From Gloeocapsopsis crepidinum LEGE 06123 (GTDB lineage Bacteria > Cyanobacteriota > Cyanobacteriia > Cyanobacteriales > Chroococcidiopsidaceae), in assembly GCF_015207655.1 (NCBI RefSeq), contig NZ_JADEWN010000062.1:1-36949 (forward strand): DNA of 36,949 bases. Direction: 5' to 3'. The notes under the pieces were generated by a model that ran no database searches, was not told the origin of the DNA, and worked only from the letters and a program-made list of their open reading frames with translations. Each line of letters starts with the position of its first letter. The first letter of the stretch is position 1. Below are positions 18,335-36,839 of the stretch, piece after piece. The position numbers and the translations under genes are program-made.

Positions 18335-18985
18335 TTAATAAGCACCTTTACCTGTAATCACAACCACAACGGTTTGCCAGATAATATATAGATCGAACCA
18401 TAAAGACCAGCGATCGCGATAAATCATATCTAGCTGCAGCATATAGTCAAAGCTCACCTCACTACGTCCACTAATCTGCCACAAACCAGTGACCCCAGGC
18501 ATTAGTTCTAAACGTTTTATAAAAGTATTGCGATGGTTTTTGACGGCTAGAGTACAATCGCGTAATTGCAGAGGACGCGGACCTACTAAGCTCATATGAC
18601 CTTGAACAACGTTAAATAGTTGTGGCAACTCATCTAAACTAGTCCGTCGCAAGAATTTACCAACGCGGGTGACACGAGGATCTTCTTTCATTTTAAAGAG
18701 TACTCCACCGTCTGATTCGTTTAAATGCTCTAGCTCTTGCAAAAGTTGCTCAGCATTCACTATCATAGTGCGAAATTTCCAGATCAAGAAAGGTTTTCCA
18801 CCGCGCCCCAAACGTTCTTGCCGAAAGAAAATTGATCCTTTTGAGTCTAGAGAAATCACAAGTGCGATCGCAAGCATCAAAGGACTCAGCAGAAGTATTC
18901 CTACACCAGCGCCCAAAATGTCAATAATTCGCTTACTAACAAGTTGCAACGTATATCGTGGGTGACTGACAAAACTAAGTTGCAT
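18335..18985 (-). CDS. Monotopic phosphoglycosyl transferase (bacterial sugar transferase)
   Basis: This is a PF02397-type enzyme of about 216 residues. It transfers a sugar 1-phosphate from a nucleotide sugar to a polyprenyl phosphate and so starts assembly of a polysaccharide or glycan. It is the short form: one N-terminal re-entrant hydrophobic helix (about 22-45, after KRIIDILG), then FFRQERLGRGGKPFLIWKFRTM, the catalytic DE dyad in LRRTSLDELPQLFNV, GHMSLVGPRPL, and PGVTGLWQISGRSEVSF. The large multi-span N-terminal domain of WbaP/WcaJ is absent. The ATG at 18985 is preferred over an in-frame GTG at 19018, since AAGGG is near it. It lies 97 bases downstream of the P450 on the same strand, so it may be the last gene of that cluster or start a separate unit. 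Confidence 0.9.
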   Translation of the reverse strand: MQLSFVSHPRYTLQLVSKRIIDILGAGVGILLLSPLMLAIALVISLDSKGSIFFRQERLGRGGKPFLIWKFRTMIVNAEQLLQELEHLNESDGGVLFKMKEDPRVTRVGKFLRRTSLDELPQLFNVVQGHMSLVGPRPLQLRDCTLAVKNHRNTFIKRLELMPGVTGLWQISGRSEVSFDYMLQLDMIYRDRWSLWFDLYIIWQTVVVVITGKGAY

Positions 18986-19081
18986 GGTACAGTAAACCCT
19001 TAACAGTCTAGTTGACACTGATAGCCAAAAGGAAAGGTTGGTAATTGGTGACTAGAAAAATATTTATTAACAACTCAAAAC

Positions 19082-20443
19082 TCATGGATTCAAAACTTTC
19101 TTAACTTGTGCTTGGAGACTATCTTGATACTTGGAAGGCTGACGCACTGGCACGATTGCACTTGGTTCAGGAGTCACACTCCAGTCGTAACGCAACAACT
19201 TTGAGAGGATAATCTTCATTTCCATCTGGGCAAATTGCCAGCCCAAGCAACTGTGCGGACCACTACCAAAGCCTACTAATGCAAAGGAGTGCTTTTTATC
19301 TTCTTCGCGAGGTGGGGCAAAACGATCGGGATCAAAGCGATCGGGATCAGTATAGATTTCAGGTAAACGATGCGTTAGCAGTGGAGAAATATCGACGTGC
19401 CAGCCAGCGGGAATGCAGTAGCCTGCGTAATAAATATCTTTAACAACCCCACGCGACATATTTTGTACAGGAGGATACAGACGTTCTACCTCTTTGAGGG
19501 CGTAGCCCATTTGAGGAAGTTGTTTAAGATGAGATAAGTTAAGTGGTTCATGACCCACGACTTGGGCGTATTCAGTACGTAGGCGATCGTACCACTCAGG
19601 ATGCGCGACTAACTCAAACATCAACCACGAAAGTAGCACTGCTGGATTTTCATGTCCTGCAAATAGGACCATCAGCAATTGGTCAATAATATCCGATTCA
19701 CTCAAAGAGTTACCATTTTCATCAACAGATGCGAGTAACAATCCAAGAAAGTCGCGTGACTCTTGTAGTAATCCCTGTTGTCTGCGTTGAGCAATTTTAC
19801 GCCGTAAAAAAGCTTGTAAATTTCGCCGTGCTTGCTGCGATCGCCCATACAATGTTTGGGGAATATCCAGTTTTAACTTTGCCCGTCGTCCCACAAGCAT
19901 TCCCAAAAAATACTGTGTTGCTTCTGCGAATTCGCTATCGGTTTCAGTGCCTAAGATAAGACGAATTGCAATTGTTGTTGAGAGATTGGTAAATTCTTCA
20001 ATTAGGGAAATTGTACTACCTTCTTGCCAATCTTCAAAAAACTTATCGACAATTTCTTGAATCGTGTCAAAGTAATTATTAAGCGATCGCCCGTGCATTG
20101 CTGGATACATTAAGCGGCGTGTTGCTTGATGTTCTGCACCATCTTGTAAAAGCAACCCTTTACCAAAAATAGGTTCTAAAAAAATCCAACCTAGTCGTGC
20201 AGAAAGATGATCTGCTTTTTCTGCTAGAACTAAGCGGTTAGCATCAGGACCAATTAAAAAAGCGAAATTTTTACCAAAAATCCGTGATTTAAAAACTGAA
20301 CCATAACGCTGAAAGTGATCCCAGTAAAAAAGTTCTTCGTCTCTAAATAGCTCTTTTGTCTCACCTCCAAATAGCTTACCAAAACTACCAGGCATTTCCT
20401 CTGCTGGTTTAAATTGTGACGTTGGTTTTGTTTGGACAACCAT
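19082..20443 (-). CDS. Cytochrome P450 with atypical I-helix
   Basis: This is a haem-thiolate monooxygenase of about 453 residues, soluble with no N-terminal anchor, resembling CYP120/CYP51-like bacterial P450s. The ExxR motif is E318-R321 (KEVERLYPP), and the haem-ligand loop FGSGPHSCLG places the cysteine at about C399. The I-helix reads LFAGHENPAVLLSW: the glycine and acid (E265) are retained, but the usual threonine that guides oxygen activation is Asn266, followed by Pro. That suggests an unusual reaction or altered proton delivery; this is inference. The ATG at 20443 is chosen because AAGGAAC lies about 12 bases before it. The gap to the upstream methyltransferase stop is only 17 bases, so the two are co-transcribed. 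The substrate is unknown. Confidence 0.92.
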   Translation of the reverse strand: MVVQTKPTSQFKPAEEMPGSFGKLFGGETKELFRDEELFYWDHFQRYGSVFKSRIFGKNFAFLIGPDANRLVLAEKADHLSARLGWIFLEPIFGKGLLLQDGAEHQATRRLMYPAMHGRSLNNYFDTIQEIVDKFFEDWQEGSTISLIEEFTNLSTTIAIRLILGTETDSEFAEATQYFLGMLVGRRAKLKLDIPQTLYGRSQQARRNLQAFLRRKIAQRRQQGLLQESRDFLGLLLASVDENGNSLSESDIIDQLLMVLFAGHENPAVLLSWLMFELVAHPEWYDRLRTEYAQVVGHEPLNLSHLKQLPQMGYALKEVERLYPPVQNMSRGVVKDIYYAGYCIPAGWHVDISPLLTHRLPEIYTDPDRFDPDRFAPPREEDKKHSFALVGFGSGPHSCLGWQFAQMEMKIILSKLLRYDWSVTPEPSAIVPVRQPSKYQDSLQAQVKKVLNP

Positions 20444-20460
20444 TAAAATAGTTCCTTTGC

Positions 20461-21501
20461 TCAAGCGCGTACAGCTTCAATGATGCTATTAGCAGTTTGT
20501 GTAGGGATAATTCTTGTTACCTGAAAACCAGCAGATGCTAAGAGCGATCGGTATTGTGCTTCAGTACGTTCATAGCCACCAGGAGTTGTGAGTAACGATT
20601 CTAAATCAATTAACTTTCCGACAAAAGGCTGATTACCAAGAGGCATAATCATTTCTACGATTAAAAGTCTGCCATCTGCTGACATCACCTCACGACAGTT
20701 TTTCAGAAGTTGCACTGCGCGATTGTCATCCCAATTGTGAACGACAAACATGAGAATGTATGCATCGCCGCCACTGGGTACTGAATCTAAACAATTACCT
20801 GCAATCAGTTCACAGCGATCTGCAACTTTGGCTGATTCAATTACTGAAGTTGCCGCAGCGATCGCCGAAGGATAATCAAAAAGTACCCCTTGCATTGTGG
20901 GGTTTGCTTGTAAAAGTGAAATAACTGTGCTGCCACTGGCAAAAATACCAATATCAACAACTTTATTAATCAATGAAAAGTCATAATTTGCAAGTAGCGA
21001 TTGCGCTGCACGTTGCGAAATACTCGCCTTGGACTCGCTAGAAACTCGCGCAACTTCGGGATCTTGATAAAATTCAAATAATCCTTGTTTGTAGAGGTAT
21101 TCAAACGCAGGTTCTCCTGTTTTGACACTGTAATGCAGATTTTCCCAAACATTCCAGTGCCAATCTTGACCAAAAAATTTAACAGCAGCGCGGACTGAAT
21201 CAGGAGAGTCACTTTGAAGGAACTCAGCAAGGGGCGTTAAGCTAAAGTGACATTCATACTCGGCAAAAATACCAACACTTGCAAGCGATCGCATCAACCG
21301 ATAAAGTGATGGTGCATGAGTTCCGGTTGCTTGTGCCAACTCCTCAACAGTTTGAGAACCATCTGCTAACAAGTCAGCAATGCCCAATTCAGCAGCAGCA
21401 TAGATTAATCGTGCTACTCGTAAACCCCCTAACATTTGCATCATTGCCACTTGTGGAGGTAAGTCTGGTGGCATATTGGGATTTGGTTTAGTAGTAATCA
21501 T
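20461..21501 (-). CDS. O-methyltransferase, COMT type, with degenerate SAM loop
   Basis: This is a small-molecule methyltransferase of the plant COMT / bacterial polyketide O-methyltransferase family, 346 residues. An N-terminal winged-helix dimerisation domain (about 15-105) is followed by the Rossmann domain. The catalytic base region HNWDD and the downstream VGKLIDLESLL and GGYERTEAQYRSLL blocks are conserved. The glycine-rich SAM motif I is eroded: it reads VVDIGIFASGSTVISLL, where the paralogue at 21.6 kb has VDIGGGYGSHL. It may bind SAM weakly or have another role, such as a heterodimer partner; this is inference. It has the same ancestry as the other two methyltransferases here, which suggests local duplication. 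It sits directly upstream of the P450. Confidence 0.9.
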   Translation of the reverse strand: MITTKPNPNMPPDLPPQVAMMQMLGGLRVARLIYAAAELGIADLLADGSQTVEELAQATGTHAPSLYRLMRSLASVGIFAEYECHFSLTPLAEFLQSDSPDSVRAAVKFFGQDWHWNVWENLHYSVKTGEPAFEYLYKQGLFEFYQDPEVARVSSESKASISQRAAQSLLANYDFSLINKVVDIGIFASGSTVISLLQANPTMQGVLFDYPSAIAAATSVIESAKVADRCELIAGNCLDSVPSGGDAYILMFVVHNWDDNRAVQLLKNCREVMSADGRLLIVEMIMPLGNQPFVGKLIDLESLLTTPGGYERTEAQYRSLLASAGFQVTRIIPTQTANSIIEAVRA

Positions 21502-21584
21502 TTCTCTAGATAGTTAGATAGTAAGGGGGCAGACTAATTTGTAATGAACGATTCTTCTATGTAACTTGCTATTGTTTTCCCCGA

Positions 21585-22697
21585 TCAACTAACACCAACA
21601 GCTTCAATGATTTTCCAAGGAGATGCTGTGGCAAAGACTTTTGTCAGCTTGAAACCTGCGGCATCAAAAAGTGCGCGATATTCTGCTTCTGTACGTTCGC
21701 GTCCACCAGAAGTTGTTAACATTTCTAAATCCAGAAGTTTACCGAAATAAGGTGTATTTCCAGGAGGAATTACTGCCTCAACAAGCAATAGCTTGCTGTG
21801 TTCTGTCATGGCGCGACGACAGTTTTTGAGAATCTTAACTGCGTTGGGTTCATCCCAGTCATGAATAACGGTTTTAAGAAGGTAAATATCACCGCCAGGC
21901 GGTACAGACTGGAAAAAGTCGCCAGCAACTAACTCACAACGCTCCGCTAGTCCATTTTCTGTAATAAACTCTTTAGCACCGGCAATTACAGATGGCTGAT
22001 CGAATAGAACACCTTTGATTGATGGATATGTTTTAAGAATTGTTGTCAGATGACTGCCATAACCACCACCAATATCAACTAATTTAGAGATTCCTGAAAA
22101 ATCATAGCCAGTGGCAATCGCGCTATTATTTAACGAAGCTAAATTAGTCATCGCTTCATCAAAATGATTGCCAGCTTGAGAATCTTGGACAAAGTACTCA
22201 AAAATATTTGGCTTACTAAAGGTATACTCAACAGCGGTTTTACCTGTTTTGACACTTTCAATCAAGTTACCCCACAAGTTCCAGTGCCACTTTTCACCTG
22301 ACATAATTGCCCAAGCACGTACTGATTCAGGAGAATCTATTTGTAACGTCACAGCTAAAGGTGTTAAGTCAAAGCGTTTTTCCTCGTCTTCGGCAAATAT
22401 TCCAAAACTCGCAAGCGATCGCAATAATCGATAAAGTGACTGTTCATCCACTCCAGTCAGGTGTGCTAGTTCCTCACTACTTTTGGCGCCATCTTTAAGC
22501 AAGTCAGCAATTCCTAATTGTGCTGCAACATATATTGCCTGCGAAACCTGGTAAGCATTAATCATCTCCACCATTGCCACTTGGGGTGGCATCATTTTGG
22601 CTCTAAATTTCTGCAATGAATTGGTAACATTCATCATTGCTTGAATCAGCGCCATAGGAGGCTTTTTAGGTTTTGTTTGAAGATTGGCTTGAGACAT
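21585..22697 (-). CDS. O-methyltransferase, COMT type
   Basis: This is a SAM-dependent O-methyltransferase of 370 residues, the longest and most canonical of the three paralogues. It has an extra ~25-residue N-terminal extension before the dimerisation domain (PPQVAMVEMINAYQVSQAIYVAAQLGIADLL at about 37-67). SAM motif I is LVDIGGGYGSHLTTIL, followed by the acidic GVLFDQPSVI. The catalytic-His block is TVIHDWDEPNAVKIL, and the C-terminal block is GGRERTEAEYRALFDAAGF. A good Shine-Dalgarno, AGAGGG, precedes the ATG by a few bases. The likely substrate is a hydroxylated aromatic or polyketide-like compound, inferred from the family and from the neighbouring P450 and ABM protein. An 83-base gap separates it from the next methyltransferase. 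Confidence 0.93.
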   Translation of the reverse strand: MSQANLQTKPKKPPMALIQAMMNVTNSLQKFRAKMMPPQVAMVEMINAYQVSQAIYVAAQLGIADLLKDGAKSSEELAHLTGVDEQSLYRLLRSLASFGIFAEDEEKRFDLTPLAVTLQIDSPESVRAWAIMSGEKWHWNLWGNLIESVKTGKTAVEYTFSKPNIFEYFVQDSQAGNHFDEAMTNLASLNNSAIATGYDFSGISKLVDIGGGYGSHLTTILKTYPSIKGVLFDQPSVIAGAKEFITENGLAERCELVAGDFFQSVPPGGDIYLLKTVIHDWDEPNAVKILKNCRRAMTEHSKLLLVEAVIPPGNTPYFGKLLDLEMLTTSGGRERTEAEYRALFDAAGFKLTKVFATASPWKIIEAVGVS

Positions 22698-22876
22698 ACA
22701 TCCCTCTTTACTTATTTGGCAACCAGAAAATCTTAAGGTAAGTGAGCATAGTTATGCATCACACTTTTTATGTCAGTTAATAATTAATTGTTGATTTTCC
22801 GTTGACCATTAACTCTTTACAGGTGTAGTTGTTTACTCTCACTCACTCTTTGGTATCTTGATTATTTTGAAAAATG

Positions 22877-23224
22877 CTAAGAATGTTTGGTGTAGCAAAC
22901 TTCGTAAAGTGTCGGATCGGATTGTGCAATTTTACCAATTGCAGGCATATGTGACACAGCTTCAGGATTATTAAAAATACCGCGAAAGTCCTCAATACTC
23001 TGCCATTGTGCGTAGTTTGTTACTCTTTTACCGTCTAAACTTTTGTGGATATTTGCCGCAATAAAACCAGGAAGCTTACACATGACTTCTTCAGTCGCTT
23101 TTACTAATAAATCAACGAGTAATTGCTGGTTTTCTGGCTCAACAATAAATACGTTAATTAAAGTGATGCAATCAGTATCTTTAGATATTGTGGTGAGTTC
23201 TTCGTTGTTGATGATTGTAGTCAT
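22877..23224 (-). CDS. Antibiotic biosynthesis monooxygenase (ABM) domain protein
   Basis: This is a 115-residue ferredoxin-like-fold protein of the ABM family. Members include cofactor-free oxygenases that make quinones from polyketide phenols (ActVA-Orf6, TcmH types), and also haem-degrading or unrelated small proteins. The core TLINVFIVEPENQQLLVDLLVKATEEVM, then PGFIAANIHKSLDGKRVTNYAQWQS, is typical, followed by the MPAIGKI helix and a closing strand LYEVCY. The N-terminal 18 residues are outside the domain. AAGGAG precedes the ATG by six bases. Its place between two O-methyltransferase genes argues for a tailoring oxygenation of an aromatic intermediate. The precise reaction is not deducible. 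Confidence 0.87.
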   Translation of the reverse strand: MTTIINNEELTTISKDTDCITLINVFIVEPENQQLLVDLLVKATEEVMCKLPGFIAANIHKSLDGKRVTNYAQWQSIEDFRGIFNNPEAVSHMPAIGKIAQSDPTLYEVCYTKHS

Positions 23225-23349
23225 GTTGACTCCTTGAGTAATTCCTAAGTAGTTACTTTAGAGAATGAATACTCCTAAAAAATTCATGATTCATTTTCGA
23301 GAAAGTTACTTTGCAAAGAACAAATAATTACAAATTATGAATTATTTAA

Positions 23350-24423
23350 TCAAGCTGGTACAGATTCGATAATGCTCATTGGAGACTTTGAGGAGATAAT
23401 GTTTGTAAGTTGGAAACCAGATGCGCTGAGGACTTCTCGATATTGTTCTTCGGTGCGTTCGATTGCACCTGTACTCATTAGCAGTGCTTCTACATCTAAA
23501 ATTTTGCCTAAAGATGGTTCATTACCTGGAGGAATAACCATCTCAATGAGTAACAGTTTGCCATGTTCTGCGATCGCCTGACGGCAGTTTTTTAAAATAG
23601 CGATCGCGCGATCGTCATCATAATCGTGAATTAAATTTTTAACAATGTAAACATTGCCACCAGGGGGAAAAGATGCAAAAACATCACCTGTAACAACTTC
23701 GCAGCGATCGCTCAACCCTGTTACTTCAACAAGCCGTTTTACCTGTTCGATTCGAGTTGGACTGTCGAAGTAAACTCCACGTTGCAATGAGTTGTTCTTT
23801 AATATGGAAGCAATAAGTTTGCCATCTCCTTGACCTCCTGTTCCAATATCAACGATACACTCAAACGAGGCAAAGTCATAGTTAGCTAAAATTGCCACGT
23901 CAGTCATTGCTAAAGCACTGACCATTGCTCCATCAAAATTTTTGGCAACTTCAGGATTTTGCTGATAGTATTCTTCAAACTCCATTCCAAAAAGATGGTC
24001 AAAGGCAGGTTCACCTGTTTTAAGACTGTGAAGAATTCCTCCCCACATCCGCCAGTGCCACATTTCACCAACAACGATCGCATAATCTCGTAGCGAATTG
24101 GAAACGTTACTCTGCAGTAGCGCACCTCTAGGGGTCAAGTGAAATAAACCGCTCTCGTCTTCAGTGAAGATATCAAAACTAGCAAGTACTCTCAACAATC
24201 GATAAAGTGACTGTTCGTGAGTTGCTGTTGTTTGTGCTAACTCTGTAATACTTTGTGGTTGTGTTAACAAGTCTGCAATACCAAGCTTTGCCACCACAGA
24301 AATCGACTGTGCAAGTCGATAAGCATTCATCATCTGAAGAATTTTTACTTGCGGTGGCACGCCTTGAGCAACTGGTGGACGAGGTGCTGTAGCGTCTGAG
24401 GGTTTGTGTTGCGATGAAACCAT
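23350..24423 (-). CDS. O-methyltransferase, COMT type
   Basis: This is the third paralogue, 357 residues. A proline-rich start (residues 10-25) leads to the dimerisation domain (VKILQMMNAYRLAQSISVVAKLGIADLL). The SAM region is IVDIGTGGQGDGKLIASIL, which is glycine-rich but two or three residues longer than the canonical loop. The acidic GVYFDSPTRI follows. The catalytic block is NLIHDYDDDRAIAIL, and the C-terminal block is AIERTEEQYREVLSASGF. AAGG lies about nine bases before the ATG. Only 14 bases separate it from the stop of the 173-aa gene upstream, so they are co-transcribed. Sequence divergence among the three enzymes implies different positions or substrates rather than redundancy. Confidence 0.92.
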   Translation of the reverse strand: MVSSQHKPSDATAPRPPVAQGVPPQVKILQMMNAYRLAQSISVVAKLGIADLLTQPQSITELAQTTATHEQSLYRLLRVLASFDIFTEDESGLFHLTPRGALLQSNVSNSLRDYAIVVGEMWHWRMWGGILHSLKTGEPAFDHLFGMEFEEYYQQNPEVAKNFDGAMVSALAMTDVAILANYDFASFECIVDIGTGGQGDGKLIASILKNNSLQRGVYFDSPTRIEQVKRLVEVTGLSDRCEVVTGDVFASFPPGGNVYIVKNLIHDYDDDRAIAILKNCRQAIAEHGKLLLIEMVIPPGNEPSLGKILDVEALLMSTGAIERTEEQYREVLSASGFQLTNIISSKSPMSIIESVPA

Positions 24424-24437
24424 GCTTTAGCCTTGCC

Positions 24438-24959
24438 TTACTGATGAGCGGCGATAAATAATTGTTCTTTATTTGAGCCAAGCTGAAATACTGCCTCAAT
24501 TCCTGCCATTAGCTCAATCATTTCATTCAATGCGGTTACTATCCGTTGATATTGTCGAATATCTTTATTACTGAGATAAGAACCTTCACGCTCTTTGATC
24601 CATTTTTGACAAATTTGATAGTTCCAAACTTGTGATGGTATGTTCTTAAAGTACTGCTTTTTATTGATCCAAATTAGTCCGTTTTCGTCACTCTGCTTTG
24701 GTTCTGCGTAACGCACTGCCTCGACAATGTTATTACCTATAACAGGGTAGTCAGCGAGTATCGACATAGGCTGTTCGTCATTACGCTTTTGTGAATATAT
24801 ACGCATAATTCCGCGAATACGAACATCTGCTATCAATCTTCCTTGCCGTTGAGAATGAACTTCATGCCAAGCTGCTTTGCGCAATGCAGGATAAAGTTTA
24901 TTGTCTTGTTTGTTAGATAATTGCCGATTTCTAACGTGTTGTTCCACTACTGTGTTCAT
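24438..24959 (-). CDS. Stand-alone protein resembling type ISP restriction enzyme C-terminal domain
   Basis: This 173-residue protein is not part of a restriction gene here. Residues about 70-165 look like the C-terminal specificity domain of type ISP restriction-modification enzymes: an EAVRYAEP strand, GLIWINKKQYF, IPSQVWNYQICQKWIKEREG, and then LSNKDIRQYQRIVTALNEMIELM followed by GIEAVF. The N-terminal 65 residues are basic and polar with no recognised motif. No helicase, nuclease or DNA methyltransferase lies nearby. It is instead the first gene of a methyltransferase/P450 group, 14 bases before an O-methyltransferase. The similarity is by pattern memory, so the domain name is moderately secure and the function unknown. 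In this setting it might be a binding or scaffold protein. Confidence 0.7.
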   Translation of the reverse strand: MNTVVEQHVRNRQLSNKQDNKLYPALRKAAWHEVHSQRQGRLIADVRIRGIMRIYSQKRNDEQPMSILADYPVIGNNIVEAVRYAEPKQSDENGLIWINKKQYFKNIPSQVWNYQICQKWIKEREGSYLSNKDIRQYQRIVTALNEMIELMAGIEAVFQLGSNKEQLFIAAHQ

Positions 24960-25324
24960 ATTTTTTGCCGTACATTATTTATGCAGCTTGTAGTTAGGTA
25001 GGACAGAATATATTTTCTGGAGAGTAGATTCTTTGTCTAAACTTGACAAATTGGTATTAAGCAGAGCAATCTAATTCTTTGTGAAGCTATTTTTTAGGAG
25101 AATTTGAAGCTTTGGCTGAAAATACAGACTTTTTAAAGGAATTAAAACTACAAAAAAATAGATTTATTACGTTATTTAGTTTTTCAAGATAGCAGTTTAG
25201 AGAGATAAAAACTTTAGAAAATACTTACTTTTAGTAATTTAGTAAATAGTTTCTCACATAAATGCGATAAGCAAGATTTAGAAAAGAGTAGATCCTGTAC
25301 AACTTATGTGTAACTTTTTGTTTG
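24960..25324. promoter_or_regulatory. Intergenic region upstream of the methyltransferase/P450 genes
   Basis: These 365 AT-rich bases separate devA from the 173-aa gene. Two inverted repeats lie close to that gene: CAGAATATATTTTCTG (25004-25019) and TTTGTC-N7-GACAAA (25032-25050). They could be operators or lie over a promoter, which makes a separate transcript for the tailoring genes plausible. No terminator for devA is evident. No ORF is seen. Confidence 0.35.
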
Positions 25325-26053
25325 TTAGGTGTTACTCTCAAATTGCCTCGATAGACGCGCTGGTGTGAGGCTATTATTGTAGCTTAAGCGACCATCTTCC
25401 ATGTGAATGATGCGATCTGCAACGTCTAAGATACGATTATCGTGTGTCACCATCACAATCGTACACATCTGTTCTTGAGCAAGATGCTGCATTAACTCAA
25501 CGACAGCACGACCAGATGTGCTATCTAATGATGCTGTAGGTTCGTCAGCTAATACAAGTTTGGGTTGATTTACTAAAGCCCTAGCAATTGCAATGCGTTG
25601 TTTTTGCCCGCCTGAGAGGTTTTCCGGATAGTAATTTAGGCGATCGCCTAACCCGACTGCTTGAAGAATTGTTTGCGATCGCGATCGCGCAGCTTGCATC
25701 GAAATGTTATTGTTGACTTGCGCTGCCATTTGCACATTTTGCTGTGCTGTGAGAAATCCTAGTAAGTTGTGTGATTGAAAAATATAACCGATTTGGCGTC
25801 GCAGTTTTGTTAGCTTTTGCTGACTTGCGCCGGATAATTCTTGACCGAGAAACTGAATACTTCCTGATTGTACAGAACGCAAACCACCAATCAAACTGAG
25901 TAATGTTGTTTTTCCCGATCCTGATTGTCCTGTAATAATCACAAACTCTCCCGCACCAATTTCTAAATTAATATCGAGTAAAGTTTGCTTTTGCAAAACG
26001 CCTTTACCATAGTAGTGGTTAAGAGATTGAATTTTTAGTGCTGGTTGTTGCAT
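25325..26053 (-). CDS. devA: ABC exporter ATPase, DevA type
   Basis: This is the ATP-binding subunit of a DevBCA-type exporter, 242 residues, cytoplasmic. Walker A GQSGSGKTT is near residue 42, followed by the Q-loop IFQSHNLLGFLTAQQNV, signature LSGGQKQR, Walker B LVLADEPTASLDS and the H-loop VTHD. The fold is of the LolD/MacB group. In Anabaena, DevBCA with a TolC-like outer membrane protein exports heterocyst glycolipids. Relatives with other cargoes are numerous in cyanobacteria, so the cargo here cannot be assumed. The gene follows devC after ten bases in the order devB-devC-devA. Confidence 0.92.
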   Translation of the reverse strand: MQQPALKIQSLNHYYGKGVLQKQTLLDINLEIGAGEFVIITGQSGSGKTTLLSLIGGLRSVQSGSIQFLGQELSGASQQKLTKLRRQIGYIFQSHNLLGFLTAQQNVQMAAQVNNNISMQAARSRSQTILQAVGLGDRLNYYPENLSGGQKQRIAIARALVNQPKLVLADEPTASLDSTSGRAVVELMQHLAQEQMCTIVMVTHDNRILDVADRIIHMEDGRLSYNNSLTPARLSRQFESNT

Positions 26054-26063
26054 AGATTACTGA

Positions 26064-27230
26064 TTAACTAAAAATATCTGCTGGATCAGCCGCCCGCAGT
26101 TTACGTATAGCGATCGCGCCCGATATGCAGCACATCAAAACTGTCAAAAGCAAGACTAATAGTGCTCGGCTTATCGTCATTGTAATTGGCAAAAGCGTTT
26201 CTTTTTGTACTATATTATATTGAAATATCGCGAAAGCAAATCCAGGCATATAGCCTAAAGTAGCTAATATTAAAGCTTGTTGAAAAATAACAATTAATAA
26301 GTAAAATTGAGTGTAACCTATTGCTTTGAGTGTTGCATATTCTGGTAAATGATCGGCAATTTCACTGTACAAAATTTGATAAACAATCACAGTTCCCACA
26401 ACAAATGCCATGATTGTTCCCAGAGTAAAGATAAAGCCAATTGCTGTACTACTTGCCCAATAAGATTTTTCAAAATCAATAAACTCTTGTTTCGATAGTA
26501 ATCTAATATCTTTTTGGGTTATCGAACTGCGTAGTTTTTCAAGAACAACCTTAGTGTTTGCTCCTGGTTTAAGTTTAACTAAACCAACGTCAATAAGTCC
26601 GAGGTTTCGTCCATCTTGATTAAATAGCCGGAAAAAATTCAAATCGCTTGTAATTAAATTACCATCAGCACCAAATGATGTTCCTAACTGAAACAATCCA
26701 CCAATTTTAATTGTGCGACCTCCTACTTCAGTTTCGATCGCCTTTCCTTGTAAAAAATCAGCGGCGATTGTACCGAACTCTTGACGCGAACCTTGGTCGA
26801 ACAAAAAAACATCTGGTTGCTTAATTTTATCGAGGTTTTGTTGGACTCCTGGTAAGTTAACGATAGAATCATCTGGGTCAAATCCAATGACTTGAATACT
26901 ACGCAGCTTGCGTGTTTGAGGGTTTCTCCATGAAGTAAAACCTATATAAATAGGATGAACGGATTCCACTTCCTCAAGTGCTAAAACTTGGTACAAACGC
27001 CGCTGCGAAAAAGTTTTCAGAGAAAGTAACGCATCCGATTGAGGATTGATGACAACAATTTCGCCATTCAAGCTTTGGTGAAACTGAACATTACCATCAA
27101 ACAGTGCTTCTCGAAAACCTAATTGCATAAACATTAAAATATTGGCAAAAGCAATTCCAGCTAATGCCACGATTAACCGTGTTTTTTCACGCGTGAGTTG
27201 TAACCATGCCAAAGGAATTTTACGAATCAT
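26064..27230 (-). CDS. devC: ABC exporter permease, DevC type
   Basis: This is the permease subunit of the exporter, 388 residues, with FtsX/MacB topology. One transmembrane helix near the N terminus (about 18-38) is followed by a large periplasmic domain (about 40-260), then three helices at about 265-290, 310-335 and 352-378. Family-typical segments are visible: PLAWLQLTREKTRLIVALAGIAFANILMFMQLGFREALFDG, spread over the start and first helix, and the ATLKAIGYTQFYLL coupling region. The C terminus RKLRAADPADIF is the usual DevC ending. It lies 30 bases after devB and 10 bases before devA. Confidence 0.92.
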   Translation of the reverse strand: MIRKIPLAWLQLTREKTRLIVALAGIAFANILMFMQLGFREALFDGNVQFHQSLNGEIVVINPQSDALLSLKTFSQRRLYQVLALEEVESVHPIYIGFTSWRNPQTRKLRSIQVIGFDPDDSIVNLPGVQQNLDKIKQPDVFLFDQGSRQEFGTIAADFLQGKAIETEVGGRTIKIGGLFQLGTSFGADGNLITSDLNFFRLFNQDGRNLGLIDVGLVKLKPGANTKVVLEKLRSSITQKDIRLLSKQEFIDFEKSYWASSTAIGFIFTLGTIMAFVVGTVIVYQILYSEIADHLPEYATLKAIGYTQFYLLIVIFQQALILATLGYMPGFAFAIFQYNIVQKETLLPITMTISRALLVLLLTVLMCCISGAIAIRKLRAADPADIFS

Positions 27231-27260
27231 TTTCTTGGCATTAAATAAGTATTGTTCGAT

Positions 27261-28460
27261 TTAAACATTAATTTCTACAACCACTTTGGCGTAAGTAAAA
27301 CCAGAAACTAACTCGCTAGCCGTTGTGGGTAAATTAATTCTGACTTCTACAACTCTGGCATCAACATCCGCAGCAGGATCGCTATCTAAAATGTTTTGTT
27401 TACCGATTTGTCTACCTACTTGTGACACAGTTCCTTGAATTTTTTCAGAAAAAGCTCGGTTTTCGCTAGTAATACTCGCTGTTTGACCTGTACGTACTTT
27501 GCTAATATCTTCTTCAAGAACTTCTGCAACGACAACCATTTGATTGGTACGCGCGAGTTCCGCTATTCCGTTCGAGCTAATTGTTTCTCCAGATCGCGTG
27601 TGAATTTTAATGATTTCCCCATCAATGGGAGCTTTAATGTAGCTTAATGCTAAATCGGCTTGAGTTAATTTAACAGCAGCTAGCATTCGCTCTACTTGAG
27701 CTTGGGCTTCGCGTACATCCGTTGGGCGCACTTCGGTAATGCGGTTGAGATTGGCTCGCGCTTCCTCGATTTGGCGTTGTAAAGTTGCGATTGTTTCGTT
27801 ACGAGTTGCTTGGCTTTCATTAACTTGCTGTTGTGCGGTTTCTGCATTCAAGCGTCTTGTTTCCAGTTCTTGCACAGAAATTGCACCCTCTTGATACAAC
27901 CGTTGATAACGTTCGTAGTCACTTTGAGCATTGCGCTGCGCTGCTACTTGACGCGCGACTGTTGCTTGAAGCGTCTCTTGTTGTCCTGCAAGTTCGGCTT
28001 CCAGACGGGCGATCGCGGCTTTTTGGGCTTCGATTTCTCCGGTTTGCGCTCCTGCTTGGATTTTTGCGAGTGCAGCACGCGCAACTTGTACATCGGCTTG
28101 AGCGCTTTCTAGCGCGGCTTGTAGGCGGGTATGCGTGTCTAGAATTGCTACTGTTTCACCTGCTTTCACCCAATCGCCTTCTTTTACCAAGATTTGCTCA
28201 ACTCTTGCGCCTTGTGCTGAACTTGGTGAAGATAGGGCGACAACTTCTCCTTGTGGTTCTAAGCGCCCTAACGCAACAACATTGCGGGTGACTGGCGTCG
28301 GATTAGTTACTACTGTAGGCGTTGGTTGATTTGTTTGGTGAAATCGAATGAAAGCAACACTACCAACAACAACAGTTGTCGCAAGGATTAAAGGAATGCG
28401 CCACTTATTTGGCTTGAAGCGTGACTGTTTTGACCCTGGCTTCTCTGTAACGATTGACAT
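27261..28460 (-). CDS. devB: ABC exporter membrane-fusion protein, DevB type
   Basis: This is the periplasmic adaptor of the exporter (HlyD/MacA-like), 399 residues, which links the DevC/DevA pump to a TolC-type outer membrane channel. A basic N terminus and single membrane helix (about 22-42) precede a first lipoyl half-motif (VVALGRLEPQGEVVALSSPS, EQILVKEGDWVKAGETVAIL). A long alanine/glutamine-rich coiled-coil hairpin follows (about 110-250), then the second lipoyl half (LALSYIKAPIDGEIIKIHTRSGE) and the beta-barrel domain. It is the first gene of the devBCA unit, with about 440 bp of noncoding DNA upstream. Confidence 0.93.
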   Translation of the reverse strand: MSIVTEKPGSKQSRFKPNKWRIPLILATTVVVGSVAFIRFHQTNQPTPTVVTNPTPVTRNVVALGRLEPQGEVVALSSPSSAQGARVEQILVKEGDWVKAGETVAILDTHTRLQAALESAQADVQVARAALAKIQAGAQTGEIEAQKAAIARLEAELAGQQETLQATVARQVAAQRNAQSDYERYQRLYQEGAISVQELETRRLNAETAQQQVNESQATRNETIATLQRQIEEARANLNRITEVRPTDVREAQAQVERMLAAVKLTQADLALSYIKAPIDGEIIKIHTRSGETISSNGIAELARTNQMVVVAEVLEEDISKVRTGQTASITSENRAFSEKIQGTVSQVGRQIGKQNILDSDPAADVDARVVEVRINLPTTASELVSGFTYAKVVVEINV

Positions 28461-29059: not shown

Positions 29060-30391
29060 TCAAACAAGATTGAAGTGTTCTATGTGGATATATTTGGCGG
29101 GAACTTCTAGCTCATGTAAGGCTTTTTCGACTTCAGCTAAAAAGCGGGGCGAACCACAAAGAAAATAGCGCCAGCTTTCGCGATCGCTTGGAATATGTCG
29201 TGCTAGCAGTTCTTTGTTGATATAGCCCGACTCTCCCGCCCAATTTTCAGGAGGCTTTTTGATTACATGAGTTACACTCAAGCTCTCTAATTGCTTGTTG
29301 AGATATTCTAATTCTTCGCGGAAAGCCACATTCTCCCAGGAAGCATTGGCGTAAATTAAGTGAATTGGTCGGCGATCGCCGCGTTGAGCAAAGGTAACGA
29401 GAATGCTAAACATTGGTGTGACACCTACACCGTTGGCGATGAGAACTAAGCCAGTGAAGCTGAAATGATCCGGAGTAAAAGCGCCGTGGGGACCATCAAG
29501 AAAAGCTTTTGTCCCTGGTTGAATGTGTTTGATTTTGTTTGTAAAATCGCCAACGGCTTTGATTGTGAGTGCGACTTGATCGGTGCGATCGCCGTTAGAA
29601 GAAAACGAGAACGGATGCTCTTGAATGTGATAAGGAGAGCGATCGAGCGTTAACCAAGCAAATTGTCCTGGAGAAAAACGAATACCTTCATGTCCCTGCG
29701 GACGCAGTACGAGTGTCCAAGCGTTACCTCGTTGTGGAACCACAGTTTCTACCCGATAGGGTTTTTGCATCATCAACCACGGCTTGAGCAAACGGACATA
29801 AATCAATGAACCAAACGCCACAAACGCTAGCAGCGTCCACAGCAAAGCTTTCCAAGGAAGTACAAGATAGTAGTTCACGCCAAAAGCATGAGCTAGCCCT
29901 AACCCTACCGCAGTTACAGCAAAAATTCCGTGACTGGTGCGCCACACTTCATAGTTGAGCTTGAGTTTCTGTCGCCATACCGAAGTGACAACAAGTAGTA
30001 TTAAAGCGATCGTCGAAATAATGGCGAATTTTGCTCGCCAAGGAGCCGCAAAAAAGTTGAGCGCTTGTAGGTATTGACGATCGTGAAAAAATAAAATGAT
30101 GGGATGAGCAAGGATTAAAGCAAATGCGACTTGGGTGATGTAGCGATGGTATTGCAGAACAATATCAATACCGTAAGGAGCCGCGATCGCATCAAAGCGC
30201 GCTGTCAGTGCAAATTGCAGCATCATCATTGCCAAGCCTACATATCCAAAAGCCGCAGAAAACTCAATCCAAAAACCCCTCCCACTTGGCGCTGGCTGAA
30301 TCAACAGAATCAACAACGGAGAAAGGGTTAATAGAAGATGTAAAGCTATCCAAAATATTCCTACAACCCAGAATTTTTTTCTTTGAAACAT
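29060..30391 (-). CDS. Ferric reductase/NADPH oxidase-like flavocytochrome
   Basis: This is a membrane electron-transfer protein of 443 residues of the ferric reductase/NOX type. An N-terminal six-helix domain (about 8-205) carries paired histidines for two b haems: HRYITQVAFALILAH on one helix and HGIFAVTAVGLGLAH on a later one, about 13 residues apart in each. The FAD-binding barrel follows (RFSPGQFAWLTLD, then the HPFSFSS motif, and DGPHGAF), then the NAD(P)H domain with IANGVGVTPMFSIL and YFLCGSPRF. It would pass electrons from cytosolic NAD(P)H across the membrane to oxygen or a metal. There is no EF-hand domain. The 45-aa membrane peptide gene follows 21 bases downstream. Acceptor and role are not deducible. 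Confidence 0.9.
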   Translation of the reverse strand: MFQRKKFWVVGIFWIALHLLLTLSPLLILLIQPAPSGRGFWIEFSAAFGYVGLAMMMLQFALTARFDAIAAPYGIDIVLQYHRYITQVAFALILAHPIILFFHDRQYLQALNFFAAPWRAKFAIISTIALILLVVTSVWRQKLKLNYEVWRTSHGIFAVTAVGLGLAHAFGVNYYLVLPWKALLWTLLAFVAFGSLIYVRLLKPWLMMQKPYRVETVVPQRGNAWTLVLRPQGHEGIRFSPGQFAWLTLDRSPYHIQEHPFSFSSNGDRTDQVALTIKAVGDFTNKIKHIQPGTKAFLDGPHGAFTPDHFSFTGLVLIANGVGVTPMFSILVTFAQRGDRRPIHLIYANASWENVAFREELEYLNKQLESLSVTHVIKKPPENWAGESGYINKELLARHIPSDRESWRYFLCGSPRFLAEVEKALHELEVPAKYIHIEHFNLV

Positions 30392-30793: not shown

Positions 30794-31936
30794 CTACTTA
30801 TTTCGCCTACACCAGCACAAACCTAGTACAGCAAACATACTTAAAGTCAATACTGAAACACCCCCAACATTAGCATTAGAAACAGGATCGGCGCGGAAAA
30901 CTGCGGTTTGACCATTTTCTAGAAGGGCTTCAAATGTAACTTGACCAGTATTATTTAATCCGCGTCCATCAATCACCAAATCCACTACTTTAGAATTAGC
31001 AAGAGGATCGCCAACAGCAATAACTTTGTTGGTTACAGGGTTTTTTCCTGTATAAATACCACTACCACCTCCTGCATGAAGATAAGCTAAAAAGGCGATT
31101 TGACCTTGATCGTTAAGTGCAGGAATCGATTGAAAAAAACTAAAAGAACCACTATCGTCAATATACGTTTCTATTTCTTGATCTCGTCTCTTTTTAAAGA
31201 TACCATGCTTGCCATTATTTAACTGAGCTAAAAAGGCAACCGTGCCATTATTATTGATAGCTGGTGAACTGAAGGATCTAAATCTACCAGTACTGTCAGC
31301 AACTTTAACAGTTCCTTTACCTCTACCAAGAAAGATTCCAGTTGCTCCTGTATCTAAAGTAGCGTGAAACGCAACCGTGCCAGCGTCATTAATAGATGGT
31401 ACGCTAAAAGCACTAGCAGGACCATCAGTTCCTACGGTTCTAAAGCCAGCATTAAAGTTACTAAAGGGGTCGCGGCTAGAAGCAATCGTTGTTGTTTTAC
31501 CATTTTGATTAACAAAAATTCCCGCTTCTGTTGTATCTAAAAGGGCATTAAAAACTATTGCCCCTTGATTGTTCAACTTGGCATGACTAAAGTATCCAAA
31601 TTCACGATTACTATCAACAACAGTAGTAAGCTTTCCATTATTCTCGGTAAAAACACCTGTATAAGATTGGGCGTAGTCTGGACTATAAAAAACACCAATA
31701 AATGACTTTGTGTTGTTGTTATTGATAGTAGGACTAAAGAAAATGTGATTAATAGGGCTACCATCAACAATTGTTGTATTTCCACCTCCCGAACCGGTAA
31801 AAATTCCGCTTGGTGGAAGAGTCCGATCGACAAAACCTTCAAAAGCTACGGTTCCTTTGTCATTGATAGCAGAGGCTCTAAATACACTATGGGAAGTACT
31901 AATTTGACTGATTTGGGTGAACTTGTACCGAGACAT
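30794..31936 (-). CDS. Repeat protein with C-terminal membrane/sorting tail
   Basis: This 380-residue protein is made of about seven units of 45-55 residues with the pattern INxxGxVAFxAxL...GIF (for example INDKGTVAFEGFVD, LNNQGAIVFNALLD, INDAGTVAFHATLD, INNNGTVAFLAQLN, LNDQGQIAFLAYLH, LNNTGQVTFEALLE). This is a beta-propeller-like repeat common in cyanobacterial PEP-CTERM-class surface proteins. The C terminus is a short hydrophobic helix ending in CWCRRNK, the layout of an exosortase sorting tail, but no PEP tripeptide precedes it. The N terminus shows no signal peptide, and the ATG at 31936 lacks a Shine-Dalgarno, so the true 5' end may be lost or lie upstream in another frame. Export to the cell surface is inference. 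Confidence 0.75.
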   Translation of the reverse strand: MSRYKFTQISQISTSHSVFRASAINDKGTVAFEGFVDRTLPPSGIFTGSGGGNTTIVDGSPINHIFFSPTINNNNTKSFIGVFYSPDYAQSYTGVFTENNGKLTTVVDSNREFGYFSHAKLNNQGAIVFNALLDTTEAGIFVNQNGKTTTIASSRDPFSNFNAGFRTVGTDGPASAFSVPSINDAGTVAFHATLDTGATGIFLGRGKGTVKVADSTGRFRSFSSPAINNNGTVAFLAQLNNGKHGIFKKRRDQEIETYIDDSGSFSFFQSIPALNDQGQIAFLAYLHAGGGSGIYTGKNPVTNKVIAVGDPLANSKVVDLVIDGRGLNNTGQVTFEALLENGQTAVFRADPVSNANVGGVSVLTLSMFAVLGLCWCRRNK

Positions 31937-32199: not shown

Positions 32200-33336
32200 T
32201 TAATGACGAATTGGTTTTAACCCAAGTGCTTGCATAACTTCCGCATCATGCACATCTAACTCAAACCATTGTCCCCAACCAATCTCCAATGATTCTAATA
32301 CTTGTCGAACATCTTTGAGATAGCGTAGTAGCGAACCGCGCGGAACTGTCCAAGGAATCGCACCAAATTCATTACAGATAACTGCAACGTTGTTAGTTCT
32401 TGCCCAATTGGCGATCAAAGATAAGAGTGTTATGATTTTATCTCGATCCCATTGTTGTTGAGCGTAATGCTCCACTGCGTTTTTCGCCTCAGTGTCTTGA
32501 ATTTTGCTCAGTGGAAGAGTTATTGTCGCAAGAGTTGCAGGATAGGGGATATTTTTCATAAATTGTGTCGCACGCCATCCCCAGGAAGCGCCTTGGTGAG
32601 TGAAAACAAATGGTTCGTAAAAGTGGAAGTTATACACGACATTTTTATCTGCAACAATGCGAGTCATCGGTAGCGATCGCGCGTTGTTCCAATCATTTGT
32701 AGTAGCACTGACATTGGAACTTGCAATAATTGTATGATGTGGTGCGCCCAAGCGAATAGCTTTAACTAACTCAGTTTGCACTCGATCCCAGGCTTGAGGT
32801 GTTTCTGCATTCGGTTCGTTCATCACTTCCAAAAACACCTTTTCGGGATCGGTGCGGTTCATGTGAGTCGCAAAAGCTTTGAAGAATGCGACAAATTTAG
32901 CCAGTACAGCAGGATCGGAATACAGCGATTTAGGATGATCGAATGGCGACAATATAATTCCTAGCCCTGTTTTGACGTGAAGACGCACGATCGCATCAAG
33001 TGCCGCTAGTGAATCAGTTTTTAAAACACCAGGGTTGTTGTCATTAAAAAATGTTGATAAAACAACTGGTAGGCGGGTGTAAGTTAGACCTAAATGCTTG
33101 TACTGCTGCAATTTTGCCTCAGTATAATATCCATCTAAGAGGCTGTGTCGTTGCCAGTGTGCGAGGTTGAAACCTTTGGCTAAAGTCTGTAATCGGCTGG
33201 TTTTAACTATTGTAGGTTGTGCCGCTTGGAGGCGATCGCATATCATTGTTGTCAATCCAGAAGACAGTACCAGTAGCCCAAACCGGATAAAACGAGATCG
33301 AGAACAAGGGCGGTTAGTATACTTCATGGGATTCAT
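32200..33336 (-). CDS. Glycoside hydrolase family 5 protein, secreted
   Basis: This is a cellulase-type GH5 glycosidase of 378 residues. A basic N terminus and hydrophobic segment (about 17-33), ending near LQAAQ, form a signal peptide with a plausible cleavage site after residue 39. The TIM-barrel shows GFNLAHWQ, TYTRLPV, the acid/base glutamate in LEVMNEPN (about E174), YNFHFYEPFVFTHQG, and the nucleophile in VICNEFG (about E323). It hydrolyses a beta-linked glucan or mannan in the periplasm or outside. Its ATG overlaps the preceding glycosyltransferase stop (ATGA), so it belongs to the GT2-GT2-GH5 operon. A glycosidase coupled to glycosyltransferases suggests polysaccharide trimming or release, which is inference. 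Confidence 0.9.
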   Translation of the reverse strand: MNPMKYTNRPCSRSRFIRFGLLVLSSGLTTMICDRLQAAQPTIVKTSRLQTLAKGFNLAHWQRHSLLDGYYTEAKLQQYKHLGLTYTRLPVVLSTFFNDNNPGVLKTDSLAALDAIVRLHVKTGLGIILSPFDHPKSLYSDPAVLAKFVAFFKAFATHMNRTDPEKVFLEVMNEPNAETPQAWDRVQTELVKAIRLGAPHHTIIASSNVSATTNDWNNARSLPMTRIVADKNVVYNFHFYEPFVFTHQGASWGWRATQFMKNIPYPATLATITLPLSKIQDTEAKNAVEHYAQQQWDRDKIITLLSLIANWARTNNVAVICNEFGAIPWTVPRGSLLRYLKDVRQVLESLEIGWGQWFELDVHDAEVMQALGLKPIRH

Positions 33337-34331
33337 CCTGATTGTCTGGCTTGCAAAATGCGGTACTTTTGTACAGCCCCTATAACTTTTAAAGCAATAG
33401 TCTCAATCTGGCGATAAAAAGATTCTGGTAAAAACCAAAGTAAATACGCAGCAACTACAGTCATTAGCGTACGACGCGGTTCTTTCAAAATGCTCCAATG
33501 AGTAGCCAAAGCTTGATGCATTAACTTGACAGCTACAAAGCCTGCTTGCAGCCGAATCGCACTACGTGCCAGCGACTTGAGTTGATAAGCCTTAGCAGGA
33601 CGTTCGCACTGTGCAATTAGTTCAGGTGCATAGGTTCGCGTCTTTGCTAATACCTTCTCAAAAGACTCTAGCTGCTTGAGTAAATTTTTTGAAGCTCCTT
33701 GAGGATTAACTCGATACAATGTGAGAGCTTCAGAAATTCCCTCAATTTGCCAAGAAGTTTGAATTGCAATACGCAGCCAATATTCCAGATCCTCAGCATG
33801 ATGCAATTGCTCGTCGAAATAACAATTTTGCATTGCACTATCTTTTATAACTTCTCGCCGGATCACAGCCGCAGAACCGTTCCCAACGACACTATCAATC
33901 AGGAGATATGACGGAGTAATATCTTTGAGTTTAGGCATCATAAATGTACCAAGCAAATCGCCTGATTCATCAATAAAAGCGGAACGGCTAAAGCTAACAC
34001 CCACACTAGGAGAAGATTCCAGATGCGCCAGATGTTTTTCCAGCTTTTGTGGTAGCCATAAGTCATCGCCATCTAAAAATGCTATATATTCACCTTGGGC
34101 ATGACGAATTCCCGTATTGCGTGCTGCGGATACACCGCCGTTTGGTTGTCGAATAATTTTTATTCTGGCATCGTCAAACTGCTGACAAATTGTCACACTT
34201 GCATCTGGTGAGCCATCATCCACGATCAACAGTTCCCAGTTTTGATATGTCTGTGCTAGTACTGATGCCACTGCTGCACCTATATACTTCTCTACTTTGT
34301 ACACCGGAATAATCACCGTTACTTTTTTCAT
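33333..34331 (-). CDS. Family 2 glycosyltransferase, second copy
   Basis: This is a GT-A fold, inverting glycosyltransferase of 332 residues. The N-terminal catalytic domain carries TVIIPVYKVEKYIGAAVASVL, LLIVDDGSPDAS, the acceptor-side NGGVSAARNTGI, and the metal-binding DGDDLW (DXD-type), then RREVIKDSAM and the LHHAEDLEYWLRIA catalytic-base region. The last ~90 residues form a helical tail, with a hydrophobic stretch near 285-305. The first ~123 codons are identical in DNA to the adjacent copy, while the rest has drifted to a moderately similar paralogue. It is translationally coupled to the GH5 gene. Donor and acceptor are unknown. The role is probably in surface polysaccharide synthesis. 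Confidence 0.92.
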   Translation of the reverse strand: MKKVTVIIPVYKVEKYIGAAVASVLAQTYQNWELLIVDDGSPDASVTICQQFDDARIKIIRQPNGGVSAARNTGIRHAQGEYIAFLDGDDLWLPQKLEKHLAHLESSPSVGVSFSRSAFIDESGDLLGTFMMPKLKDITPSYLLIDSVVGNGSAAVIRREVIKDSAMQNCYFDEQLHHAEDLEYWLRIAIQTSWQIEGISEALTLYRVNPQGASKNLLKQLESFEKVLAKTRTYAPELIAQCERPAKAYQLKSLARSAIRLQAGFVAVKLMHQALATHWSILKEPRRTLMTVVAAYLLWFLPESFYRQIETIALKVIGAVQKYRILQARQSG

Positions 34332-36809: not shown

Positions 36810-36839
36810 TTGCCATGCTTGATACAGCCTATTGCAGTT

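Follow-up and report, generated by a model that had tools for sequence, protein, structure and literature searches.

The type II aromatic polyketide synthase (PKS) gloPKS of Gloeocapsa sp. PCC 7428 has been reconstituted in vitro. According to that study, it forms salicyl-primed C29 products in an orange/brown mix and is similar to the thermorubin system, its output in vivo is unclear, and residues Q31 and T35 of its acyl carrier protein (ACP) were mutated (PMC11744666). The ketosynthase (KS) and chain-length factor (CLF) of the same strain were employed earlier (PMC6638757), and cyanobacterial KS-CLFs have been catalogued (PMC10132072). We analysed a 36,949-nucleotide stretch of Gloeocapsopsis crepidinum LEGE 06123 (the window, NZ_JADEWN010000062.1), which is the entire contig C99 of a 5.67-Mb genome in 150 contigs (G000). 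Ten minus-strand genes at 18335-28460 of the window are very probably one arm, for tailoring and export, of a single large gloPKS-type locus for a type II aromatic polyketide, with the scaffold genes on another contig, C89.

In reading order, with gaps in bp, the ten genes are devB-30-devC-10-devA-365-ISPC-14-OMT3-125-ABM-179-OMT2-83-OMT1-(-4)-P450-63-sugT, where OMT stands for O-methyltransferase. All ten lie at the coordinates that an initial annotation, made from the sequence alone, had given; its domains are borne out by Pfam and NCBIfam searches, and its spacing by the measured gaps. A 17-bp gap in that annotation is obtained when the P450 starts at the likely ATG at 20443, seven codons downstream of the listed TTG. 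The annotation was right to see a tailoring-and-export function and an aromatic-polyketide flavour in the P450 and ABM genes, and its interpretation as a whole is partly supported. It had seen no scaffold enzyme, and had proposed that the scaffold is made elsewhere or by an unrecognised enzyme. The former holds and the latter does not, since a type II PKS was found on contig C89; no such enzyme is visible in the window because the contig ends before the PKS half. The annotation had overlooked that the window makes up an entire contig, past whose right end the PKS lies.

The type II polyketide synthase on contig C89

In two relatives the ISPC homologue has a stand-alone FabD-like acyltransferase nearby, which prompted a search for ketosynthases. 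All 10 genomes that carry the tailoring core have a tandem KS pair of about 400-440 aa that is distinct from FabF. In 8 of the 10 the pair is on the same contig as the core, 11.1-36.0 kb from OMT1, and in two of these eight (G046 and G085) this contig is the chromosome. Genes for an ACP, a phosphopantetheinyl transferase (PPTase), a benzoate/salicylate-CoA ligase, a cupin, a PF04199 cyclase and a START-type polyketide cyclase surround the pair. Salicylate synthase and hydrolase genes are found at nine of the ten loci, and a ketopantoate-reductase-like enzyme at seven.

In the window's genome this half occupies C89:459-16116 (stretch L162). The genes found there encode TPR, NACHT and MTHFR-like proteins, KSalpha, CLF, the ACP, the PPTase, the CoA ligase, a cupin, a cyclase, a START-cyclase, the salicylate synthase, a hydrolase and a reductase. 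The NACHT-type NTPase and MTHFR-like genes are directly upstream of KSalpha (1382-5763 of L162). The former is present at all ten cluster loci and may be a regulator; the latter is present at nine and might supply methyl groups for S-adenosylmethionine (SAM).

Three KS pairs were aligned (from G000, G046 and strain ULC007). KSalpha retains Cys-His-His (GCTAG, NAHGSSTP, KSMIGH), and in CLF the Cys is replaced by Arg and the first His by Glu, as is possible for a chain-length factor. The ACP, encoded at 8481-8738 of C89, has a DS motif in LQLDSTE (...KDLQLDSTE...), and the PPTase was recognised by PF01648. Gln31 and Thr35 (numbered from MVMD) are present in the ACPs of G000, G085, ULC007 and ULC18. 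The orthologues in G046, which are 69-70% identical to their C89 counterparts, were scored for the two salicylate enzymes: the synthase reached 351 with TIGR03494 (cut-off 325) and the ligase 496 with the benzoate-CoA ligase family TIGR02262 (cut-off 375). The locus therefore has the KSalpha and CLF residues, the discrete ACP and PPTase, and the cyclase and tailoring genes of a type II PKS cluster, although in the window's genome it comes as two contigs joined by comparison. With a salicylate synthase and a CoA ligase, as at nine of the ten loci, it also has what marks a salicyl-primed cluster of the gloPKS kind; the salicyl-primed C29 product itself is on record for PCC 7428 only, from in vitro work (PMC11744666).

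Two other sources of the scaffold were considered. A type III PKS (hierridin-type) was dropped after the type II KS pair turned up. The genome's own type I PKS genes (on C32 and C139) were set aside, as their counterparts in relatives lie off the cluster contigs.

Probable contig junction and co-inheritance of the two halves

In the sister genome G102 both halves are on one contig, C8. The similarity of the window to the G102 stretch L158 stops at base 2154, and that of C89, from its base 126, begins at L158 base 2153. The first 125 bases of C89 gave 40 scored matches among 96 candidates in the genome; 20 of these start at contig base 1 and one is the final 125 bases of C85, which places at least 21 at contig ends. 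Because the C89 end is multi-copy and foreign sequence is present at both contig ends, a repeated element between the two halves very likely caused the break in the assembly. The multi-copy repeat was demonstrated for the C89 end, not for the window end. The element is probably an insertion sequence, and further contigs of the genome have likely been cut in a like manner.

All ten genes have the same order in four further genomes of the family (G102, G067, G085, G045). The ratio of nonsynonymous to synonymous substitution rates (dN/dS) is 0.05-0.15 for each of the ten genes against G067, and 0.05-0.29 for nine of them against the much closer G102. The grouping is more than chance, because the order is kept in four family genomes and dN/dS is low. 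In G046 and in a Myxosarcina metagenome-assembled genome (G019), the core is P450-OMT1-OMT3-ABM. The initial annotation had asked whether the cluster genes travel together: P450 and ABM do accompany OMT1 at all ten loci of adequate length, but devBCA is not obligatory. A DUF7453 gene is also present at all ten cluster loci (identity 35-100%).

The two halves also track each other among genomes; the following counts ignore genome kinship, and the samples overlap. Among 148 genomes of the order, seven have an ABM match of at least 71% identity (next best 44%) and the identical seven have a CLF match of at least 75% (next best 36%), namely G000, G102, G067, G085, G045, G019 and G046. Presence and absence split within two genera, where G119, G120 and G135 lack both ABM and CLF. 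Among 386 genomes of the phylum, OMT1 (at least 65%) and CLF (at least 76%) are both found only in G000 and G019. The order to which ULC007 belongs was sampled with 42 genomes: two (G479, G480) have the START-cyclase and three (G479, G480, G484) have OMT1 (at least 61%).

In a scan of named genomes for OMT1, 42 stretches fit the pattern and six were confirmed. These six loci belong to five organisms: the Myxosarcina genome, Pleurocapsales LEGE 10410, Stenomitos frigidus ULC18, Leptolyngbya FACHB-36 and Phormidesmis priestleyi ULC007. FACHB-36 has two contigs of 3.8 kb, which reach no further than ABM and OMT1, and the coordinates of the OMT1 contigs of G484 agree with it.

Tailoring enzymes, ISPC and the variable exporter

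The ABM protein (22877-23224; PF03992, 30.9 bits against a cut-off of 23.1) is cofactorless-monooxygenase-like. Its solved relatives in a profile search of the PDB are the ABM protein 9lsd (4.6e-27), the anthrone monooxygenase 9kdp (1.1e-13), the anthrone-oxidase-like 5f9p (7.6e-11), ActVA-Orf6 1lq9 (1.7e-10) and, weakly, SnoaB. By sequence it is thus a relative of the quinone-forming ABM enzymes, which fits a possible quinone formation on an aromatic polyketide. ABM paralogues elsewhere are about 30-41% identical and often double, and none of 13 regions checked has OMT or P450 genes. The window's genome itself encodes a tandem-ABM protein (G000:C85:16493-17128) that is 39-44% identical to the window's ABM and has relatives in genomes without the cluster. 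The P450 (19082-20464; PF00067) is CYP120-like, with CYP120 (2ve3) as its closest solved relative, and is present at all ten loci.

OMT1, OMT2 and OMT3 each have the Methyltransf_2 and Dimerisation domains of Pfam. OMT2 (21585-22697; PF00891, 175.8 bits) has DIGGGYG and HDW. In the alignment of motif I, METHYLTRANSFERASES, it shows DxGGGxG, and with its catalytic His and PF00891 fold it has the features of a canonical COMT-type O-methyltransferase. OMT1 (20461-21501; DIGIFAS) and OMT3 (23350-24423; DIGTGGQGDG), assigned by PF00891 and motif comparison, both lack the canonical DxGGGxG. The OMT1 proteins of the window's family have lost the GGxG run (IFAS/IYAS), those of Pleurocapsales types have GAG, and those of Leptolyngbya types have GGYG behind two extra residues. 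The SAM loop is altered in all ten OMT1 proteins aligned (from nine genomes), and likewise in those of G085 and G045 in a separate comparison. In OMT3 the loop has two to three extra residues in all eight proteins aligned (DIGTGGQGDGK in the window). Eight outside homologues (L172-L179, 44-49% identity) have GGxG intact and no insertion. Both proteins are under purifying selection (dN/dS against G067 of 0.12 for OMT1 and 0.08 for OMT3).

OMT1 and OMT3 could still be ordinary methyltransferases whose changed loop binds SAM, with three or more methyl groups added, and we give this a little under an even chance. Both retain the His of HNW/HDY/HDW and the Glu positions, which we take to be catalytic residues, and the Leptolyngbya-type OMT1 retains GGYG within its shifted loop. 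However, OMT1 of the window's family has no GGxG run, and one to three extra loop residues are found in all 10 OMT1 and 8 OMT3 proteins aligned, whereas OMT2 and the eight outside homologues have no insertion. The solved relatives of OMT1 in the PDB profile search include LaPhzM (6c5b), AlpH (8h3t; ranked second) and RdmB (1qzz; ranked 24th). AlpH and RdmB belong to the OMT-like polyketide enzymes that do without SAM or do not methylate. In the available part of the report on it, AlpH acts without SAM on a type II polyketide intermediate, and its motif DFCGGQG is less altered than the OMT1 loop of the window (PMC10477347). A near-normal motif in an enzyme that does not use SAM means that the motif alone cannot decide. 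An AlphaFold model of OMT1 (mean pLDDT 64.6, 7-row alignment) was not used. Judged by the motifs, one sure methyltransferase with two special OMT-fold proteins would be as likely as three methyltransferases. The inference from three OMTs to a substrate with several hydroxyls is weak because the SAM loops of OMT1 and OMT3 are altered throughout the alignment and only OMT2 has a canonical motif; the initial annotation had overstated it.

ISPC (24438-24959; PF18135) is a stand-alone Type_ISP_C protein of 173 aa that covers only positions 255-340 of the 342 in the profile. Stand-alone homologues of about 160-200 aa, beside OMT3 or a FabD-like gene, were found in all ten cluster genomes searched, whereas in many other genomes the Type_ISP_C match sits in frames of about 1000-1100 aa. 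Its dN/dS is 0.13 against G067 and 0.29 against G102. A mere remnant of a restriction gene is unlikely because of the dN/dS value against G067 and the stand-alone copies in ten of ten genomes. A part of a restriction system was also rejected: no methylase or helicase adjoins ISPC, and it does not have the makeup of a Type ISP enzyme. ISPC is probably a restriction-enzyme specificity fragment that has turned into a cluster gene.

The exporter consists of a DevB-family membrane-fusion protein (27261-28460; TIGR02971, 326 against a cut-off of 129), the permease DevC (26064-27230; TIGR01185, 592 against 290) and a DevA-family ATPase (25325-26053; TIGR02982, 362 against 296). All three score above the NCBIfam cut-offs and they form one operon (gaps of 10 and 30 bp), as expected of a DevBCA exporter. 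No outer-membrane partner was seen beside it within the window. DevBCA adjoins ISPC in the window's family. G046 and LEGE 10410 have a different DevBCA (DevB 34%, DevC 57%), which in G046 is followed by an outer-membrane efflux protein. In ULC007 and ULC18 the place of devBCA is taken by HlyD, a double ABC protein and two ABC-2 permeases, and G019 has a DevB-like gene (394 aa, 34%) at a contig end (L059).

Upstream of the ten genes and in the same direction are genes for FRE, a ferric-reductase-like flavo-haem oxidoreductase and possible electron-transfer partner (29060-30391; PF01794/PF00175), a DUF7453 protein (30794-31936; PF24251), a GH5 cellulase-like protein that probably belongs to the polysaccharide side (32200-33336; PF00150), and two family 2 glycosyltransferases (33333-34331 and 34361-35380; both PF00535). 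FRE is found at five of the ten loci and adjoins the P450 in the Myxosarcina locus. A VanA/PaO-type Rieske protein is found at three loci, and the FabD-like gene is beside ISPC at five. LEGE 10410 alone among the ten has a tryptophan-halogenase-like flavoprotein (L168, 5631-6881), hinting at a halogenated variant. In the window's family, genes for WecG, Wzz (a weak match), Wzy (at the cut-off), a GT4 glycosyltransferase and a flippase are downstream of the PKS, the last three having been scanned in G102. At the other end is sugT (18335-19018; PF02397, 226.8 bits), a polyprenyl-phosphate sugar-1-phosphate transferase of the WcaJ/WbaP/EPS type with the catalytic half only; its TIGR03025 score of 292 bits is slightly below the cut-off of 295.55. 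Whether it belongs had been left undecided; it is present at all five loci of the window's family, and what was read of the other five genomes, which were not searched whole, did not contain it. Two genes beyond sugT were taken as gyrB and miaA, judged by sequence without a family search.

The segment 25800-32800 of the window, from the exporter through FRE to DUF7453, is 92-99% identical to G085, of another genus, and 80-88% identical to the sister G102 or absent there, except for 26300-27300 (95-99% to G102). The flanks are mostly 95-98% identical to G102 and about 75-87% to G085. This pattern suggests that the exporter module was recently exchanged across genera.

Such a segment with a different history could also mean that the exporter, the tailoring genes and the sugar transferase are unrelated operons that are adjacent by chance. 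The 365 bp between devBCA and ISPC and the fact that neither devBCA nor sugT is universal are consistent with this. Nevertheless, we consider it very unlikely: P450, OMT1 and ABM are together at ten of ten loci, the presence or absence of ABM or OMT1 tracks the PKS across 148 and 386 genomes, and nine of the ten loci show a complete exporter in what was read of them, the tenth (G019) having the DevB-like gene at the very end of its contig.

Several observations weigh against a single locus of tailoring, export and PKS genes. The adjacency of the window and C89 rests on the comparison with G102, not on one contig, and the last 125 bases of the window (36825-36949) have no counterpart at the G102 junction, nor did they match any other of the sequences compared. 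The tailoring and PKS genes are in separate and partly opposite transcription units. The exporter, FRE, the Rieske protein, OMT2, FabD and sugT differ among lineages and are not universal; OMT2 was assigned at seven of the ten loci, in G046 at 48% only, and G019 has a 112-aa OMT fragment. Salicylate synthase, hydrolase, reductase and TPR genes were not in the two stretches read for G019, neighbouring bases excluded, and the MTHFR-like gene was not found in the G046 regions read. The dN/dS of sugT against G102 is 0.52, on a dS of merely 0.026. OMT1-like proteins at 46-51% identity are common in genomes without a gloPKS-type PKS, and therefore only the OMT1 group at 59% or more can serve as a cluster marker. 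Finally, G484 has two OMT1 genes (63%) and no START-cyclase match, though ketosynthases were not searched for there; because its OMT1 contigs are so short (about 3.7 kb), the discordance likely reflects incomplete sequence.

The proposed pathway and comparison with known systems

From the gene content, synteny, co-occurrence, active-site residues and altered OMT motifs, we infer the following route for this organism. Salicylate synthase would convert chorismate to salicylate, which the salicylate/benzoate-CoA ligase would activate for loading onto the ACP, and KSalpha/CLF would extend the salicyl starter with malonyl units. The cupin, PF04199 and START-type cyclase proteins may fold the chain. 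ABM could then oxidise an anthrone-like aromatic ring to a quinone, the CYP120-like P450 would hydroxylate and OMT2 would O-methylate the product. OMT1 and OMT3 may contribute in a non-canonical way, either within a heteromer or as a SAM-independent enzyme. The finished compound would leave through DevBCA, and its destination is probably the polysaccharide sheath that the flanking capsule genes produce.

As an extension of this explanation, not an alternative to it, the whole locus might make gloeocapsin, a dark halochromic UV-screening pigment of cyanobacterial sheaths. The product would be a methylated quinone-type polyketide, exported by DevBCA or its substitute into the capsule specified by the flanking genes. 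We regard this as possible but on balance doubtful. One paper lists Gloeocapsa, Solentia and Phormidesmis nigrescens ULC007 as organisms in which gloeocapsin has been found, names Chroococcidiopsidales, Chroococcales and Leptolyngbyales as its lineages, and holds that the pigment probably derives from parietin and has an anthraquinone skeleton (PMC10359912); it is described as a sheath pigment laid down in the extracellular matrix (PMC11156808, in part). Neither paper, in the parts available, proposes genes for it. In the reported producer ULC007 a single 497-kb contig bears both core and PKS, and another bears ISPC, OMT3, FabD and DUF7453. The presence of the locus in this strain makes the origin of the pigment testable. 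The locus also occurs in the family with the gloPKS type, in one Pleurocapsales genome and in Leptolyngbya-type genomes. The anthrone-oxygenase kind of ABM suits a pigment that is probably an anthraquinone derivative (PMC10359912, in part). The capsule genes downstream of the PKS in the window's family and the orange/brown turn of the gloPKS mix in vitro (PMC11744666) also favour the gloeocapsin reading. On the other hand, ULC007 is the only named producer whose genome was checked, and no capsule genes were noticed in the Leptolyngbya-type regions read, where open reading frames were scanned in part. Parietin is a C16 compound. The C24-C29 products described for gloPKS in vitro (PMC11744666) fit plain parietin poorly, and coumarins or flavonoids were allowed as alternatives (Lara et al. 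2022, as cited in the available part of PMC10359912). Our tentative proposal, held slightly less firmly still, is that the gloeocapsin pathway is a gloPKS-type locus that would be salicyl-primed and combine an ABM-made quinone, a CYP120-type P450 and an OMT-fold set, two of them SAM-free, with export to the capsule.

The product might instead be no sheath pigment but a soluble aromatic antibiotic or signal, thermorubin-like or other, that DevBCA exports. Polyketides of type II synthases that undergo ABM and P450 tailoring are commonly antibiotics. The gloPKS cluster is also described as resembling the thermorubin cluster, and gloPKS gave C29 salicyl-primed products (PMC11744666). However, the genes scanned included no recognisable resistance gene, and capsule genes adjoin the locus in one family. 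Moreover, the cluster lineages are mostly rock- or surface-dwelling. We consider this option about as probable as the gloeocapsin one, and it too falls well short of an even chance.

Among known systems, gloPKS of PCC 7428 is one of the closest to the aromatic polyketide locus described here: KSalpha, CLF, an ACP with Q31/T35, the PPTase and the salicylate-CoA ligase are shared with C89. The main text of that study makes no mention of a methyltransferase, tailoring or a pigment, and its Figure S1 and Table S1 may list some of the cluster genes (PMC11744666). The thermorubin cluster of Laceyella sacchari, likened here by description and not gene by gene, also yields a salicyl-primed C29 type II polyketide (PMC11744666, in part). 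A CYP120C2 was tabulated in a cyanobacterial type II PKS cluster, likewise a CYP120-type P450 with a type II PKS and with no product or partner genes given in the available text (PMC7014017); therefore part of the association between P450 and type II PKS may already be on record. The heterocyst glycolipid exporters of the DevBCA family have the same three subunits, but the DevBCA of the window sits in a polyketide locus. The scytonemin cluster is presumably an analogous cyanobacterial sheath sunscreen cluster, with entirely different enzymes. The synthase was thus already known, and what is new, as far as the literature searches made here show, is its coupling to a tailoring and export arm, ISPC, the OMT motif change and the link to ULC007. 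With these, gloPKS, known as a reconstituted minimal synthase, gains a tailoring and export arm that is co-inherited in distant lineages. A small protein resembling a restriction-specificity domain, ISPC, is a steady part of this biosynthetic locus, and OMT-fold proteins with a changing SAM motif form a natural series within one pathway. The locus is also tied to ULC007, a reported producer of the sheath sunscreen gloeocapsin, which serves as a biosignature.

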